DNA from: Streptomyces sp. UNOC14_S4
GTDB lineage: Bacteria; Actinomycetota; Actinomycetes; Streptomycetales; Streptomycetaceae
NCBI RefSeq assembly: GCF_020740835.1
Contig: NZ_JAINFC010000015.1
Span: 1-34,854 of the forward strand
Length of the DNA: 34,854 bases
Direction: 5' to 3'
A program made the translations under genes and the position numbers. Of this stretch, positions 7,489 through 34,854 are shown piece after piece. Each line of letters opens with the position of its first letter. Within the stretch, counting starts at the first letter, position 1. The notes under the pieces are model-generated. The model had not been told where the DNA came from, did not search any database, and saw only the letters and a list, made by a program, of their open reading frames with translations.

Positions 7489-7538
7489 CGGCGGCTGCGG
7501 GTGCGGTGGGGGCTTGTCGCGCAGTTCCCCGCGCCCCT
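7489..7538 (-). repeat. Dispersed Streptomyces intergenic repeat, copy A
   Basis: On the minus strand it reads AGGGGCGCGGGGAACTGCGC followed by GACAAGCCCCCACC and a GC-rich tail ending in CGCAGCCGC. It matches the three copies at 28288-28500 and can fold through GGGGC/GCCCC. It lies in the gap between convergent genes. Confidence 0.8.
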
Positions 7539-21518: not shown

Positions 21519-23042
21519 TCAGAGGGTGGGGCCGAGGAGCCAGGAGGCGATCTCGCGGAGGGCCCCGTTGCCGCCCGGCGCGGTGGTCACGGCGCGGGCC
21601 GCGCCGCGTACGGCGTCGTGGGCGCTCGCGACGGCGACCGGCCAGCCGACGAGGCCGAAGCACGGCAGGTCGTTGACGTCGTTGCCCACGTAGAGCACGC
21701 GGTCGAGGGCGATGTCGTGGTCGTCGCACCACTGCTTGAGCGCCTGGTCCTTGCGGTCGACGCCGTGCAGCACGGGCACGCCGAGCTTGCGGCCGCGGGC
21801 GGCGACCACCGGGTTGGTCTCGGTGGACAGGGTCAGCAGGGTCAGGCCCGCGCGCCGGAGGGCGGCGATGCCGAGGCCGTCACCGCGGTGGACGGCGACG
21901 AGCTCCCGGCCGTCCGCGTCGATGAGGACGCGGTCGTCGGTCTGGGTGCCGTCGAAGTCCATGACGACGGCGTCGACGTCGCCCCGGCCGGGCAGGGCCG
22001 CCCCGGCGGCGGGCACGTCGAGCAGCGGGGCGAGGGCCCTGGCGCGGGCGAGGTCGTGCTGGTCGTCGATCTCCAGGACGCGGGAGGGCGCGGTGCGGAC
22101 GAGCTCGGTGTGCCCGAAGAACCGGTGCCGGTGGACGCGGAAGCCGTCCGCCCGCATGGCGTACGCGGCCCCGGTCTCCAGCAGGTCCTCGGGCCGGTCC
22201 TGACGCCGGGGCCGGTGGCTCTTGTCGTGGTTCACGCCGTGGGCGCCGCGCGATTCCACGGCGGGGGCCGCGGCGGGCCCGGGGACGGCGGGTCGGGAGA
22301 CGGTGGATCCGGAGGCAGCGGGCCGGGGGACGGCGGATCCGGAGACAGCGGACCCGGAGGAGGCGGGCCCGGAAGCAGCGGACCCGGAGACAGCGGACCC
22401 GGAGGCAGCGGACCCGGAGGCAGCGGACCCGTCGGGGTCGCGCCACACGAAACCGTGGAACGGCGCCACCGTCAGCGCGGTGTCCGCTCCGCGTTCCACC
22501 ACCGCCGCCACGACCCCGTCCACGTCACCGGCGGTCAGGAAGGGGCTGGTGCACTGGGCGAGCACCGCGACTCCCACCCGTCCCCCGCGCATCGCCTCGT
22601 ACGCGTCCATCGCGTGCAGCACGGCCGCCTCGCTCGACGCGGTGTCCCCGGCGATGGCCGCGGGCCGCTGCACCACCACGGCTCCGGCCTCACGCGCGGT
22701 GGCCGCGATCCCGGGGTCGTCCGTGGAGACGACGACGTCGGTGACGAGCCGCGCAGCGCGGCACTCGCGTACGGCGCGGGCGACGAGCGGCACTCCCCCG
22801 ACCGGGGCGAGGTTCTTGCCGGGCACGCCCTTGGAGCCGCCGCGGGCGGGGATCACGGCCAGCACGGCGTACGGCGTACCGTCGGCGGCGCCGTCGCCGG
22901 CGACGGCGGGCGCGGGCACCTGTACGTCAGCCACGTCGGCCACATCGGCCACACCGGCTACGTCGGCCACATCAGCTGCGTCGGCGGACAGAACGCGGAC
23001 GTGGGGACGGGCCTGGACGTGGACGTGGGCATGGGCGTTCAT
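21519..23042 (-). CDS. CMP-ulosonate cytidylyltransferase fused to KdsC-type HAD phosphatase
   Basis: About 507 aa from the ATG at 23042 (GGGGAG at 8 nt). An N-terminal leader rich in Ala-Asp-Val repeats (to about residue 40) is followed by a NeuA-like domain (about 55-320): VIPARGGSKGVPGKN for CTP, VVVSTDDPGIA, ERGADTALTV, ETGAAYAM and RVLEIDDQHDL. It is split at about 200-255 by an insert of (G/S)SAAS-like repeats. The C-terminal HAD domain (about 345-495) has VMDFDGTQTDD (nucleophile Asp), the Ser of LSTETN, Lys in RKDQALK and GNDVNDLPCF. The pair of activities, ulosonate-9-phosphate dephosphorylation and CMP activation, fits a Kdn-9-phosphate route. The stop is 86 bp before neuB. Confidence 0.9.
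   Translation of the reverse strand: MNAHAHVHVQARPHVRVLSADAADVADVAGVADVADVADVQVPAPAVAGDGAADGTPYAVLAVIPARGGSKGVPGKNLAPVGGVPLVARAVRECRAARLVTDVVVSTDDPGIAATAREAGAVVVQRPAAIAGDTASSEAAVLHAMDAYEAMRGGRVGVAVLAQCTSPFLTAGDVDGVVAAVVERGADTALTVAPFHGFVWRDPDGSAASGSAASGSAVSGSAASGPASSGSAVSGSAVPRPAASGSTVSRPAVPGPAAAPAVESRGAHGVNHDKSHRPRRQDRPEDLLETGAAYAMRADGFRVHRHRFFGHTELVRTAPSRVLEIDDQHDLARARALAPLLDVPAAGAALPGRGDVDAVVMDFDGTQTDDRVLIDADGRELVAVHRGDGLGIAALRRAGLTLLTLSTETNPVVAARGRKLGVPVLHGVDRKDQALKQWCDDHDIALDRVLYVGNDVNDLPCFGLVGWPVAVASAHDAVRGAARAVTTAPGGNGALREIASWLLGPTL
22276..22432. repeat. 15-bp tandem repeat array inside the cytidylyltransferase gene
   Basis: About ten degenerate units of the type GGACCCGGAGGCAGC (variants GGATCC, GACAGC, GGGCCC). 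On the minus strand they encode (S/G)SAASG, SAVSG and SRPAVP-like pentads inserted between conserved NeuA motifs. Frame is kept throughout. Confidence 0.85.
22925..22987. repeat. 9-bp tandem repeat in the cytidylyltransferase leader
   Basis: About seven units of GCCACGTCG-like sequence encode Ala-Asp-Val triplets (ADVADVAGVADVADV) at the N-terminus of the fused enzyme. A coil or slippage product; no known domain. Confidence 0.75.
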
Positions 23043-28287: not shown

Positions 28288-28336
28288 AGGGGCGCGGGGA
28301 ACTGCGCGAGCAACCAGTGACGGCCCGCAGCCGCCG
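28288..28336 (+). repeat. Dispersed Streptomyces intergenic repeat, copy B
   Basis: Starts AGGGGCGCGGGGAACTGCGC, then GAGCAACCAG, ending CCCGCAGCCGCC. It is 15 bp after the acyltransferase gene; its short GGCAGCGCCCC lead-in is itself doubled (28269, 28274). Confidence 0.8.
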
Positions 28337-28373
28337 GACGGGCATGAGCGATCGAGCTCGTGGGCGGCTTTTC

Positions 28374-28420
28374 AGGGGCGCGGGGCACTGCGCGAGCAAC
28401 CACGGCCGGCCCGCAGCCGC
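28374..28420 (+). repeat. Dispersed Streptomyces intergenic repeat, copy C
   Basis: AGGGGCGCGGGGCACTGCGC followed by GAGCAACCACGG and CCCGCAGCCGC. One base in the core differs from copies A, B and D (A to C in GGAACT). Confidence 0.8.
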
Positions 28421-28450
28421 GAGACCACCCTCCGAGGCAGACGGCGGCGT

Positions 28451-28500
28451 AGGGGCGCGGGGAACTGCGCGACAAGCCCCCACCGGGCCCGCACCCGCGC
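28451..28500 (+). repeat. Dispersed Streptomyces intergenic repeat, copy D
   Basis: AGGGGCGCGGGGAACTGCGC followed by GACAAGCCCCCACC; almost identical to copy A at 7489-7538. Three copies in 213 bp fill the gap between the acyltransferase gene and the TetR gene. Confidence 0.8.
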
Positions 28501-28535
28501 GCGGAGCGCAAGAGGCACCCCGGTAGGCGCCCCGG

Positions 28536-31546: not shown

Positions 31547-32014
31547 GTGAAGAAGAAGAGATCGGTAGGCGCCAGAGCCGCCGTACTTCTCGCAAGCTCC
31601 GCCCTCGCCGCCGTCACCCTCGCGGGCCAGGCGAGTGCGGTGACCCCGCACCACTCCCCTGCTTCGCAGCAGTCGGCCACCATCCAGGCCGAGACGCGCT
31701 ACGCGCCGTTCACCCTCAACCCCAACGAGTCGGTGAGCTCCGGCACCGCCACGCTCGTCATGCAGGGCGACGGCAACCTCGTCGTCTACGACGAGTTCGG
31801 CCGCGCCCGCTGGGCCAGCAACACCGTGGGCCAGGGCTGGACGGCCAGCTTCCAGGGAGACGGCAACTTCGTCGTCTACACCCGCACCGGCCACGCGGTC
31901 TGGAACTCGCAGACCGCCGGGCACCCGGGCTCGCGTCTGGTGATCCAGGACGACGGCAACGTTGTGATCTACGACGGCAGCCAGGCGATCTGGAACACCC
32001 GCACCGCCCACTGA
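31547..32014 (+). CDS. Secreted bulb-type (mannose-binding) lectin domain protein
   Basis: Protein of 155 aa. The GTG at 31547 has AGGAG at 7-8 nt. The signal peptide has a basic start (KKKRSVGAR) and a hydrophobic core with cleavage near GQASA (about residue 31). The mature part is one B-lectin (GNA-type) beta-prism with three Q-x-D-x-N-x-V-x-Y sites: MQGDGNLVVY, FQGDGNFVVY and IQDDGNVVIY, each complete in the mannose-contacting residues. It begins AETRYAPFTLNPNESVSSG and ends in WNTRTAH. Such small secreted lectins bind mannose or mannose-rich glycans; roles in competition or adhesion are inferred from relatives. No enzyme domain is attached, unlike many lectin-hydrolase fusions in Streptomyces. 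Confidence 0.9.
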   Translation: MKKKRSVGARAAVLLASSALAAVTLAGQASAVTPHHSPASQQSATIQAETRYAPFTLNPNESVSSGTATLVMQGDGNLVVYDEFGRARWASNTVGQGWTASFQGDGNFVVYTRTGHAVWNSQTAGHPGSRLVIQDDGNVVIYDGSQAIWNTRTAH

Positions 32015-32081
32015 CGCTCCCGCTTCCCACTGGCGGCAGGCCGGACCTCACACCGGACGGGGGTCCGGCCTCGCCAACGAG
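32011..32081. repeat. Duplicated segment A, left copy
   Basis: From the lectin stop codon onwards, 71 bp match 34705-34776 at about 93 percent by eye (four substitutions and a one-base indel). It contains a terminator hairpin: AGGCCGGACC (32038-32047) / GGTCCGGCCT (32062-32071). Confidence 0.85.
32038..32071. terminator. Terminator between the lectin gene and the membrane-protein gene
   Basis: 10-bp stem with a 14-nt loop, between convergent 3' ends (lectin, plus; membrane protein, minus). An identical stem recurs at 34733-34766. Confidence 0.7.
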
Positions 32082-32112: not shown

Positions 32113-32622
32113 CTACGCGGCCAGTTCGTACGCCTCCAGCCGCTTGATCATGCGCCGCACGATCAGCAGCGGGACCACACCGAAGAAGCCGAACGACATG
32201 TCGATGAGCTGCCAGTAGACCGGAATGCCACGGATGTGGCCGCAGATCAGCGCCAGCGGCACGATCGCGGCGCACGCGATCATTCCGAATTCGATGACCC
32301 AGATATTGCGGACCGGGTCACGGTACGGACCGTAAAAAGCGATCGCGATGACGAGGTGAGCGAAAGCGAGCCAGTCGGTGCCGTACAGCACGAACGGATA
32401 CTTCCCGTCCGTTGCCTCCAGCCCCTCCCTCGCCCGGCCGACCCACTCCATCAGCCCCGGCAGCCAGTCGGGCACGGGCGAGCCGCCGGAGCGCAGCGTC
32501 TCGTCGAGCCACCGGATTTCGGTGACGAGGGGAAAGGCCGTCAGCCCACTGAGCACGAGGCCCACGATAAAGACGACCAGCCATATCCGAATACGACGCC
32601 GAAGCGCTTCTTCCCCGTTCAT
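32113..32622 (-). CDS. Four-helix membrane protein, conserved hypothetical
   Basis: Protein of 169 aa. Hydrophobic segments are IRIWLVVFIVGLVLSGLTAF (about 11-30), WLAFAHLVIAIAFYGPY (about 84-100), VIEFGMIACAAIVPLALIC (about 109-127) and YWQLIDMSFGFFGVVPLLIV (about 136-155). A polar loop of about 50 residues with TDGKYPF lies between the first two. The ending ...MIKRLEAYELAA is cytoplasmic. I recognise no named family; similar hypothetical proteins are widespread in bacteria. No clear ribosome-binding site before the ATG. This is the gene missing between segments A and B of the right-hand duplicate copy at 34.7 kb. Confidence 0.75.
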   Translation of the reverse strand: MNGEEALRRRIRIWLVVFIVGLVLSGLTAFPLVTEIRWLDETLRSGGSPVPDWLPGLMEWVGRAREGLEATDGKYPFVLYGTDWLAFAHLVIAIAFYGPYRDPVRNIWVIEFGMIACAAIVPLALICGHIRGIPVYWQLIDMSFGFFGVVPLLIVRRMIKRLEAYELAA

Positions 32623-32640
32623 GATCGGAGCCTACGCCTC

Positions 32641-32711
32641 GCTCATCGGCTCACACCGGTGGGGCATCCGTTCCCCGCATGGCCGCCCGCACGGCGGACG
32701 CGCCACGCCGG
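32641..32711. repeat. Duplicated segment B, left copy
   Basis: Matches 34787-34854 (the match reaches the window edge) at about 85-90 percent. It includes TTCCCCGCATGGCCGCCCGC identically in both copies. Confidence 0.8.
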
Positions 32712-32950: not shown

Positions 32951-33134
32951 CGGCCTCGACAGCCTGACGCGCCGAAGCGGGCGAACCCGGAGCCCGGCAC
33001 CGGGCGAGGGCGGGCATACGCGGAAAGACGTAGATGCTCGCCTTCCGCCCTGTCCGCGACGACCGCCGGGCATCCTGCTGTCCTTCGAGTCGGTGAGCAG
33101 GCCGACTCACGTGCTACGGGGGACGGGATGCGGC

Positions 33135-33860
33135 ATGTGGGTGCACGGTGAGCGGGGGATGGCGCTGGTCGTCGAGGACGAGCAGACGGTGGAGCTGCGG
33201 GCGGACGACCACGAGCTGGGGTCGGCGCTCCTGCGCCCCTCGACGACGGCGGCCCTGCTGGTGGCTTGCGGGCTCGACAGCCCCTCGCCGGTACGGCTTT
33301 CGGACCCGGAGGCGTTCCGGCCTGTCGAGCCGGACGAACGGTACGTGTACGTGGACCGGCTGGACGGCGAGGGCCGGATCGGCGGCCACTCCCCGTCCTT
33401 CGTGCGCCGTGTGCTGACGGCTCTCGATCCGACTCTGCCGCCGCCTCAGACCGCTTCCTGGCGGGTGGGGGGCGACCGGACGCCCGGCCCGGGGTGTGGT
33501 TGCGGAGGCGTGCCCCGTACGGCAGCCGCAGCAGGCCCCGGCGCGGTCCTGGACGAAGTACGGGTGCCGGTGCCGGACTTCCTGCGCCTCTTCCACGCGG
33601 TGATCGCGCCCAGCCTGGTGTCCGACATCGTCGTCGGGGTCAACGCCACGCTGGCCATCGGCACGGACATCCACCACATGATCACGGGCAACATCCTCTG
33701 CTACCAGGGAGCCCGCATCCGCCAGCAAGGCCACTCGCTGGCGATCGACGTGGGCGGCACCGTACGCGGCAGCATCCCCGGGTACGTGCACCAAGTGGTG
33801 GACGGGCGGCTCAGCATCGACTGGGACCGGCTACGCGAACTGCCGTACGTCCACATCTGA
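33135..33860 (+). CDS. Protein of unknown function, partner of the collagen-like protein
   Basis: About 241 aa from the ATG at 33135, which has GGGGGACGGG 7 nt upstream; a GTG at 33093 is possible. No signal peptide or membrane segment. The N-terminal half (to about 115) looks globular: MALVVEDEQTVELRADDHEL, RPSTTAALLVACGL, DERYVYVDRLDGEG. A Cys/Gly loop (PGPGCGCGGVP) follows. The C-terminal half (about 140-241) has alternating short beta-like repeats: LVSDIVVGVNATLAIGTD, IHHMITGNILCYQGARIRQ, HSLAIDVGGTVRGSIPG, suggesting a small right-handed beta-helix or stacked beta structure. I recognise no family. It ends 49 bp before the collagen-like gene on the same strand, so the two probably form one operon. 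Confidence 0.7.
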   Translation: MWVHGERGMALVVEDEQTVELRADDHELGSALLRPSTTAALLVACGLDSPSPVRLSDPEAFRPVEPDERYVYVDRLDGEGRIGGHSPSFVRRVLTALDPTLPPPQTASWRVGGDRTPGPGCGCGGVPRTAAAAGPGAVLDEVRVPVPDFLRLFHAVIAPSLVSDIVVGVNATLAIGTDIHHMITGNILCYQGARIRQQGHSLAIDVGGTVRGSIPGYVHQVVDGRLSIDWDRLRELPYVHI

Positions 33861-33909
33861 TCGGGAAGCCGCTGACGAGAAGGAAACAGAAGGAAACAGG
33901 GGGACGAGG

Positions 33910-34617
33910 ATGCCGAACATCGGGACGACCTGGGATCTGAAGGGCGCCGACGGCGCTCCGGGAGCGGACGGCGCGGACGGCGCGGACATGCCCAAGGGAC
34001 ACGACGGCGAGGGCGCGCACTGCGGATGGTTCGTCCTGCCGGACGGCGAGGCGGCCGACGGGCAGGACGGCCGCCCCGGCGGCATGGGCGAGAACGGCCG
34101 CAACGGCGAACCGGGCAGGCCGGGCCGGACGCTGCTGCTGACCGTGTCCACCTTCGAGGGCGGCATCGAGTTCGACGCGCGCGGCGGCTACGGGGGCCCC
34201 GGCGGACATGGTGGCCGGGGCGGCAAGGGCGGGGACGGTGGCAACGGCGGCGAAGGCTACGGCTGCGAGAAAGGCAAGGGCGGCGGACGGGGCGGCGACG
34301 GAGGCCGGGGCGGCAAGGGTGGCCGCGGCGGCGACGGAGCCAACGGCGGCACCGTCCGCGTCTACTACAAGAACTACAACCTCGCCGTCGTCCCGGCCCC
34401 GTGGCAGCGTGGAATCGGCGGCCAGGGAGGCACGGGCGGCAGCAGCGGCAACCCCGGGCAGGGAGGCAAGGGCGGCAAAGGCGGTGACAACACCTGGGGC
34501 GGCGAGGACAGCGGCGCGCACGGCCAGAACGGGGCCCAGCCCGCAGCGGGCGAGGACGGCTGGAAGGGAAACGACGGCGCCGAGAACGGTTCCTTCCTCA
34601 TGGCGCCCATGGTCTGA
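33910..34617 (+). CDS. Collagen-like glycine-rich protein without signal peptide
   Basis: Protein of 235 aa; the ATG at 33910 has GGGGACGAGG just upstream. Layout: an N-terminal G-x-x run (LKGADGAPGADGADGAD, about 10-26); a globular piece (HCGWFVLPDGEA); a second G-x-x run (DGRPGGMGENGRNGEPG); a short beta segment TLLLTVSTFEGGIEFDARGG (about 78-97); then a long GG-x repeat (GGYGGPGGHGGRGGKGGDGG) interrupted by YGCEKGKG; a strand TVRVYYKNYNLAVVPAPW (about 148-165); and a final Gly-rich tail to SFLMAPMV. No secretion signal, Pro is too scarce for typical collagen helices, and Gly exceeds one third. It could form polyglycine-II-like bundles. Function unknown. Confidence 0.75.
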   Translation: MPNIGTTWDLKGADGAPGADGADGADMPKGHDGEGAHCGWFVLPDGEAADGQDGRPGGMGENGRNGEPGRPGRTLLLTVSTFEGGIEFDARGGYGGPGGHGGRGGKGGDGGNGGEGYGCEKGKGGGRGGDGGRGGKGGRGGDGANGGTVRVYYKNYNLAVVPAPWQRGIGGQGGTGGSSGNPGQGGKGGKGGDNTWGGEDSGAHGQNGAQPAAGEDGWKGNDGAENGSFLMAPMV

Positions 34618-34704: not shown

Positions 34705-34776
34705 CTGACGCTCCCGCTACCCCACTGACGGCAGGCCGGACCTCACACCGTACGGGGGTCCGGCCTCGCCGACGAG
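34705..34776. repeat. Duplicated segment A, right copy, with terminator
   Basis: Counterpart of 32011-32081. The stem AGGCCGGACC (34733-34742) / GGTCCGGCCT (34757-34766) is conserved; it serves the collagen-like gene that ends at 34617. Confidence 0.85.
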
Positions 34777-34786
34777 CCACCGCGGA

Positions 34787-34854
34787 GCTCACCGCCTCAC
34801 ACCGGCGGGGCTGTTCCCCGCATGGCCGCCCGCACGGCCGGCGCACCGCGCCGG
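34787..34854. repeat. Duplicated segment B, right copy (runs off the window)
   Basis: Counterpart of 32641-32711, separated from segment A by only 10 bp, whereas the left copies are 559 bp apart. The match continues up to the last base, so the true end is outside the window. Confidence 0.8.

Follow-up and report, generated by a model that had tools for sequence, protein, structure and literature searches.

Streptomyces sp. UNOC14_S4 carries two adjacent genes, here called P1 and P2, close to one end of contig NZ_JAINFC010000015.1 (assembly GCF_020740835.1). The stretch analyzed, referred to below as the window, is the whole contig, forward strand, from position 1 to 34,854 (34,854 nucleotides [nt]). 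We are nearly certain that P2 and its P1-like neighbors in other bacteria form a real module that recurs, in which a P1-like gene immediately precedes a P2-like one. Two anonymous open reading frames (ORFs) thereby become parts of a recurrent pair that is thinly spread over distant bacterial groups and is unnamed in all the family libraries searched. The records in question are those of Gordonia, Westiellopsis, Bryobacteraceae, and Myxococcaceae, together with other genomes from the orders of the last three. The observation behind an original prediction, which had been made from the sequence of the window, was confirmed, and its interpretation was partly supported. The two genes and the sites ahead of them are as follows.

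33135-33860, + strand: P1, 241 amino acids (aa), with an N-terminal part, a Gly/Pro-rich linker (residues ~111-137), and a strand-rich C-terminal segment (ORF and GC content at codon position 3, or GC3)
33910-34617, + strand: P2, a glycine-rich protein of 235 aa, predicted to be a polyproline-II/polyglycine-II helix bundle (ORF, family profile, and model)
33118-33126, + strand: ribosome-binding-like sequence GGGGGACGG, 8 nt ahead of the P1 ATG (sequence)
33899-33909, + strand: ribosome-binding-like sequence GGGGGACGAGG, with AGGGGGACGAGG abutting the P2 ATG (sequence)

P1 and P2 look like real genes. They lie on the same strand (+) with an intergenic gap of 49 nt. The GC content is 88.8% for P1 and 89.4% for P2 at codon position 3 and 49.8% and 61.3%, respectively, at position 2; the competing frames tested over P1 and P2 lacked a coding pattern of this kind. 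The ORFs, their coding GC3, and the ribosome-like sites bear out the two adjacent genes that had been proposed here. Promoter- or terminator-like consensus sequences were looked for around the pair, and none was found.

Recurrence of the pair in distant bacteria

Relatives were first found by scanning DNA for the P2 peptide GGKGGDGGNGG, which gave 103 genome stretches and 7 viral ones (loci are numbered with the prefix L). The glycine-rich protein was examined in about a third of these 110 stretches, and most of those examined were judged by eye to be of other kinds (Nostoc-type, mycobacterial PGRS-type, or phage-type). The whole layout of P2 was common to Gordonia jinhuaensis (L131), Westiellopsis prolifica (L117), and a Bryobacteraceae metagenome-assembled genome (MAG; L070). 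The gene immediately ahead of the P2-like gene in each of these three codes for a protein with a strand-rich C-terminal segment of the P1-like kind, and the P1-like proteins of L117 and L070 were clear homologues (2e-18).

Profile searches extended the set. P1-like profile A3 matched 2 of 195 genomes in the order of Westiellopsis, and the new locus, L153, had a P1-like gene followed by two P2-like genes. With P1-like profile A5, 3 of 130 genomes were matched in the order of the Bryobacteraceae MAG; the new ones, L158 and L159, both had a P1-like gene followed by a P2-like gene. P2 profile A7 matched 3 of 127 genomes at an E value of 1e-15 or better in the order of a Myxococcaceae MAG: L112, an apparent fusion; L164, where a P1-like gene precedes the P2-like gene; and L165, where one precedes a pair of P2-like genes. 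The group names of L153, L158, L159, L164, and L165 refer to the order of the record at the center of each search. L131, L117, L070, L112, L164, and L165 were thus products of P2-based searches and L153, L158, and L159 of P1-profile searches, and all three loci found by the P1 profile had a P2-like gene directly downstream.

A candidate P1-like gene was located directly upstream in eight of the nine inspected outside loci with a P2-family protein, and the ninth, L112, looks by pattern like a P1-P2 fusion. This check of homologue neighborhoods upheld the two-gene module postulated originally. Wherever both boundaries were clear, roughly 10 to 365 nt separated the P1-like and P2-like genes. In a leave-one-out test covering L117, L070, L153, L158, L159, L164, and L165, the seven P1-like proteins each matched the profile of the other six with E values from 2e-43 to 5e-4 among 4620 ORFs, L164 being the weakest. 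The P1-like protein of Gordonia (L131) and L112 were counted by pattern, with hhalign P values of 0.035 and 0.28 (0.46 with eight sequences). When P1 was compared with two frames of L131 by the Smith-Waterman method, the scores were reached by 253 and 25 of 1000 shuffles.

In the Gordonia locus (L131:2089-2660), the P1-like frame breaks within the strand region and the next frame carries a P1-like tail, which reflects either a pseudogene or a sequencing error. The Gordonia pair adjoins a McrBC-type restriction system (L131:3587-6123; Pfam McrBC, E 1e-17, and an AAA_5 protein), a neighbor hinting at a genomic island. P1-like profile A6 found nothing in 136 genomes of the Gordonia family, the Gordonia genome itself included; since it missed Gordonia's own copy, that search was blind to this divergent copy.

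The pair was rare in every group searched. A tblastn search of plasmids with three P1-like proteins gave nothing. Among the 110 scan stretches, hidden Markov models (HMMs) of P1-like proteins found separate P1-like genes above the threshold only in L117 and L070; the match in L133 (E value of 0.0045) was to a strand segment embedded in a long glycine-rich protein, and L126 scored 0.046, above P1, with a strong composition bias. No title or abstract opening in the literature searched, whose coverage mostly left out subscription papers, describes the P1-P2 pair or its cluster.

Single proteins with a signal-like start, in which GGX runs are joined to a short strand segment like SDILVADTLIMMDSSRLVLN, were also seen in Bacteroidetes, at the following places.

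L108:3687-4472, L109:6955-7740, L073:3225-4004, and L122:5058-5840: Bacteroidetes single-protein loci

These proteins may possibly be a one-gene version of the pair. Their upstream neighbors were alike in L073, L108, and L122; we take these neighbors to be fumarase-like.

Family membership and predicted folds of P2 and P1

A profile built from seven P2-like proteins, with P2 itself left out, gave P2 a score of 95 bits (E=1e-27). The same profile gave 103 bits for the apparent fusion L112 and 57 bits for the best other glycine-rich protein (L055). P2 also shows the ordered layout of the family, namely, GXX, strand, GGX, Cys loop, GGX, strand, and Gly block. On these sequence comparisons, the assignment of the window P2 to a defined glycine-rich family is secure. 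Gly makes up 35% of the protein and Pro 5.5%, and its parts are as follows.

33943-33987, + strand: GXX run 1, residues 12-26
34021-34029, + strand: Cys38-Gly-Trp40, the Cys-x-Trp loop (alignment)
34060-34131, + strand: GXX run 2, residues 51-74
34132-34182, + strand: beta segment 1, residues 75-91 (DSSP on the model)
34183-34254, + strand: GGX run of 8 units, residues 92-115
34264-34266, + strand: second Cys, residue 119, in the loop between the GGX runs (alignment)
34282-34335, + strand: GGX run of 6 units, residues 125-142
34354-34368, + strand: beta segment 2, residues 149-153 (DSSP on the model, alignment)
34411-34491, + strand: third glycine block, residues 168-194

The aligned relatives likewise have a Cys in or near the loop between the GGX runs, and Tyr153 was invariant across all eight aligned P2 proteins. 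AlphaFold2, given P2 and three relatives, produced a best model with a mean predicted local distance difference test score (pLDDT) of 66.8 and a predicted template modeling score of 0.59; ten-residue pLDDT means were 80 to 92 over much of the glycine runs. DSSP placed strands at residues 75-79, 89-91, and 149-153 of this moderate-confidence model. The counted runs and the modeled strands fit the GGX/GXX repeats with two interspersed beta segments that had been described originally.

The P2 model was compared with solved structures. VIA-align superposed it on the snow-flea antifreeze protein 3bog with a Z score of 11.4 (1.5 Å, 81 of 81 residues, 42% identity over the aligned residues) and on 7jjv with a Z score of 9.1 (85 residues, 2.0 Å). 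A Z score of at least 2 was obtained for 4 of 13 chains, and the three matches listed were all springtail proteins; the phage S16 adhesin gp38 and Obg were not among them. Springtail antifreeze proteins were also the only Foldseek matches with an E value below 0.01. P2 likely folds as a polyproline-II/polyglycine-II bundle, judging from this model. Two points weigh against that: the model was built from four sequences only, with the five models ranging in pLDDT from 66.8 down to 30.5, and the Foldseek template modeling score was only ~0.1 despite an E value of 1e-7.

Such bundles are reported for Obg, an acetophenone carboxylase subunit, gp38, and springtail antifreeze proteins, and as models for PE_PGRS proteins (PMC8409303, PMC6851490, PMC9436101, PMC13243192). 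P2 shares with the springtail proteins (3bog, 2pne, and 7jjv) the predicted polyproline-II helix bundle; unlike them, it is bacterial, has no signal-like N terminus, and has charged X positions, interrupting strands, and a partner gene, with no sign of ice binding. The resemblance to PE_PGRS proteins lies in glycine-rich triplets modeled as polyglycine-II sandwiches (PMC9436101), but no PE domain was found in P2 (Pfam, E up to 1), which does have a family-specific Cys-x-Trp loop, strands, and a P1 partner. Obg and the beta subunit of acetophenone carboxylase indicate that glycine-rich bundles exist inside the cell (PMC8409303); those bundles are domains of larger proteins, whereas P2 is free-standing with a dedicated neighbor gene. 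A bacterial family with this rare fold and a dedicated neighbor gene would be a good system for studying bundle folding.

Sequence libraries named neither protein, so that the pair is indeed undescribed as far as Pfam, NCBIfam, PHROGs, and PADLOC are concerned. P2 had no meaningful match in the four (no Pfam domain at E values up to 1), and P1 had no Pfam, PHROGs, or PADLOC family at the limits used; an NCBIfam match of P1 (E 0.24) was at chance level. Profiles of P1-like and of P2-like sequences found no convincing relative among solved structures, the best match of the P2-like profile (E 0.0003) being, by its name, a fusion construct with linkers.

We took P1 as the P1-like gene of the window mainly because of its position, gene order, and strand pattern. 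Like the P1-like genes, it lies directly upstream of a P2-family gene on the same strand. Its C-terminal strand pattern aligned in register with the P1-like family, both in HMM alignments and with hhalign, over the following segment.

33594-33752, + strand: residues 154-206 of P1, a predicted small beta-solenoid in which SDIVVGVNATLAIG..ITGNILCYQGARIRQQGHSLAIDV starts at residue 163 (in-register alignment with P1-like proteins)

The best-domain score of P1 was reached by 0 of 5000 shuffles in three tests and the full score by 1 of 5000 in the first. Other results weigh against the assignment. The window P1 had no significant match to the P1-like family profiles, with E values of 69 against a profile of three C termini, 0.14 to 0.27 with five members, 0.88 to 1.6 with six members, and 2.3 to 4.0 with seven whole proteins (two values are given where the ORF set contained both a cut and a full copy of P1). 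The hhalign P value fell from 0.35 for two sequences to 0.022 for five, BLASTP gave nothing, and the AlphaFold2 model of P1 was unusable (mean pLDDT, 30.4). The small beta-helix that had been seen in P1 originally is the only part of the observation that no model bears out: its strand pattern lines up in register with the P1-like family, but the P1 model tests nothing. In sum, the window P1 is probably the P1-like protein of its locus.

The same data bear on another reading, in which P2 is the sole functional gene and P1 an unrelated or degenerating neighbor. The nonsignificant homology would fit it, as would the fact that P1 was not refound in 295 genomes of the genus and that 8-residue patterns did not recover it from 84,980 species genomes. 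However, the coding GC3 and the ribosome-like site of P1 count against this reading, as does its location, which is that of the P1-like gene elsewhere; its strand segment, moreover, aligns in register with the family and lies at the matching protein end. We regard this reading as improbable.

Third gene, enzyme neighbors, and proposed role

The gene after P2 belonged to one family, called P3, in five loci (L158, L159, L070, L164, and L117). P3 had no meaningful Pfam match. In a search of all solved chains, the two best matches of the P3 profile were 6zrz and 6zs0, aromatic prenyltransferases of the DMATS type (E 0.004), with model positions 18-178 aligned to chain positions 14-176; the next matches, at 0.026, were named dTor_3x33L. 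The resemblance had been suspected before the profile was tested. P3 resembles DMATS-type aromatic prenyltransferases, and prenyl transfer is a possible activity.

Some loci were viewed over a wider range under new numbers (L167 for L158, L168 for L159, L169 for L117, L170 for L164, and L166 for L112); L070 was seen as a 6.7-kb stretch only. A small CxxC protein was encoded near P3 in four of the five P3 loci. Homologous PhyH oxygenases (36 to 39% identical) were found in L168, L169, and L170. L169 also had a squalene-hopene-cyclase match, with a weaker relative in L168 that scored under the Pfam cutoff for that family and just over that of the alpha-macroglobulin TED domain. L168 also had a P450, and methyltransferases were present in L168 and L170; L167 had a CxxC protein and a putative methyltransferase-like ORF. 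No P3 was found in the available flanks of L131, L153, L165, and L112 (as L166) or in the window.

The P2 proteins next to P3 shared a Cys-x-Trp motif. It was present between residues 34 and 39 in all five of them, its Trp being the sole one in four (L164 has a second), and in none of the six P2 proteins without P3 in view (L131, two in L153, two in L165, and L112). Of the aromatic columns in the residue classes scanned, the Trp column alone was shared by all five while occurring in no more than one of the six, a distribution also shown by two aliphatic columns. The association of the motif with P3 gave a Fisher value of 0.008 by loci and 0.029 by clade. It is possible that P3 prenylates the Trp of this motif. 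Some points stand against this. The test followed a pattern that had already been noticed, and it covered a small number of loci, some of them related to one another. In L131, where no P3 is in view, P2 carries a Trp at the corresponding alignment position, although not in a Cys-x-Trp context. The window P2 carries the motif, yet no P3 was seen in the window, and with five Trp residues (8, 40, 165, 196, and 218) it does not share the sole-Trp property.

The reading we favor, to which we give a little under an even chance for the bundle platform, the docking, and the enzyme steps taken jointly, is that P1 and P2 are the core pair of a conserved, probably intracellular module. P2 would be a rigid, flat, water-soluble glycine bundle acting as a platform and presenting the loop with Cys38-x-Trp40. 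The short beta-solenoid of P1 would dock on the strands that interrupt the glycine runs of P2, so that both fold into one soluble body, as in the apparent fusion L112. In the fuller relatives, neighboring enzymes may act on the Cys-x-Trp loop, the DMATS-type prenyltransferase first, followed by the PhyH oxygenases and the cyclase-like and methyltransferase proteins. The window shows the platform pair only; its enzymes may lie beyond the contig end or elsewhere in the genome, or they may have been lost. Contact between P1 and P2 is probable, and that they assemble together is plausible. A two-protein body with a third, enzymatic partner in the fuller versions is the most economical account.

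A more specific proposal, which we consider rather unlikely, is that the P1-P2 core underlies an undescribed class of ribosomal indole-terpenoid systems, of which the window holds a stripped or split version. The beta-solenoid partner would then hold the bundle while the DMATS-type prenyltransferase acts on the Trp of the loop; the isoprenoid would be cyclized and oxidized by the squalene-cyclase-like, PhyH, and P450 proteins, and the CxxC protein would handle the conserved cysteines. The proposed step would have a counterpart in tryptophan-prenylated ribosomal peptides (ComX and the products of PalQ), where a prenyltransferase acts on a Trp of a ribosomal product (PMC5331326, PMC10853753). 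Unlike these, P2 proteins have 220 to 260 residues and are modeled as folded, and the P3 of the relatives resembles DMATS enzymes. If the Trp loop of P2 is prenylated, the module would be a protein-borne route to terpenoid-indole chemistry.

The original prediction also interpreted the pair as building a fibre, shell, or adhesive particle, with a structural glycine-rich protein. This is improbable, and we found nothing in its favor beyond analogies with phage proteins. The viral contigs encode long glycine-rich proteins, perhaps of an adhesin-tip kind (five of seven read). These proteins (L143-L149) have long N-terminal parts, as seen in the same five, and we presume that they are possibly polyglycine-bundle tail adhesins of marine phages. 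The adhesin tip of Salmonella phage S16, gp38, joins a beta-helix and a polyglycine sandwich, glycine-rich polyglycine-II helices combined with beta-helical strands, as described in PMC6851490. However, gp38 is one protein at the tip of a phage tail fiber with a role in receptor binding, whereas the window pair consists of two genes and occurs in bacterial contigs. The window proteins had no PHROG match, and gp38 was not among the structure matches listed. Several of the fuller relatives sit among biosynthetic, tailoring-type enzyme genes, and P2 proteins are short, 221 to 260 aa (L070 as trimmed by us). No strongly hydrophobic N terminus was present in 11 P2 and 8 P1 proteins, and export by the usual signal peptides is thus not indicated. 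In the window, the best 15-residue Kyte-Doolittle mean near the start was -0.16 for P2 and 1.17 for P1, compared with 2.14 for the neighboring lectin, in agreement with the absence of a signal peptide noted originally.

Alternatively, the module could accompany Rhs/YD-repeat proteins, which are secreted or contact-dependent effectors, and P2 could serve as a chaperone or shell component. A giant RHS/SpvB-type protein is indeed encoded by the next gene after P3 in L170 (L170:1-7605, Pfam), L169 has an SpvB-type match within a few genes (L169:3-1490, Pfam), and an RHS-repeat protein is encoded directly upstream of the glycine-rich gene in L055 (L055:1-3060, Pfam); these three records are unrelated. 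However, L055 falls outside the P2 family proper, with 57 bits, the neighbor in L045 had no Pfam match, and inspection by eye of the ORFs listed near the pair revealed no recognizable Rhs protein in L158, L159, L153, L165, L131, or the window. We give this companion role a low probability, about one chance in ten.

An ice- or water-structuring role for P2 is suggested by the springtail antifreeze proteins, its closest solved folds, and is very unlikely. A common fold proves no common function, and most X positions in the long GGX run of P2 hold charged or polar residues (Y, P, H, R, K, D, N, and E), whereas the face reported to bind ice in the snow-flea protein is Ala rich and charge poor (PMC8409303). 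Hardly credible at all is a collagen triple helix, in the sense of the "collagen-like" label first given to P2: GXX runs at residues 12-26 and 51-74 point to it, as do NCBIfam models of streptococcal collagen-like proteins, which P2 matches weakly (E 0.01), but these matches lie >300 bits under the cutoffs, the long runs are mostly GGX and strand interrupted, P2 has 5.5% Pro and no long uninterrupted Pro-rich GXY tract, and P2 was modeled as a single-chain bundle of the polyproline-II/polyglycine-II type.

Flanks and distribution of the window copy

Direct repeats flank the pair, at the following positions (strand not assigned).

32011-32081: direct repeat A, left copy, starting at the stop codon of the lectin gene
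34705-34776: direct repeat A, right copy, 93% identical to the left copy
32628-32711: direct repeat C, left copy, flanking the pair
34774-34854: direct repeat C, right copy, 81% identical to the left copy and running into the contig end

With repeats A (93%) and C (81%) on both sides, the pair does sit in a duplication-flanked block, as had been claimed. The right-hand copies abut (34705-34776 and 34774-34854), and the left-hand ones are separated by a gene (32113-32622) that was kept in at least 19 of the 61 genomes searched. The end of the contig (34854) falls within the right copy of repeat C.

The window copy of the pair seems to be rare in its genus. In searches that scored only part of the first-look candidates, P1 refound only itself in 295 genomes of the genus, two further matches being judged chance after inspection of the loci. 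P2 likewise refound only itself in 246 genomes; of five other matches (E 4e-5 to 1e-3), four were inspected and judged to be low-complexity chance. Across 396 genomes of the phylum, the P1 C terminus matched itself and gave six weak matches, three of which were inspected and judged chance, and P2 profile A2 matched the window's own copy only. Searches of viral contigs, plasmids, and phages with the window proteins gave nothing. Because neither gene was refound in the genus genomes and because of the flanking repeats, the data suggest that the window pair was acquired.

To the left of the pair, a B_lectin-type protein is encoded at 31547-32014 (Pfam, E 1e-7), with similar DNA at G000:C179:4113-4427 (75%). 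Farther away in the window, a 15-base direct repeat occurs at 22242-22446 in ten overlapping registers. An element starting with AGGGGCGCGGGG is present in three closely spaced copies (28288-28502), with one inverted copy 21 kb away (7491-7538).

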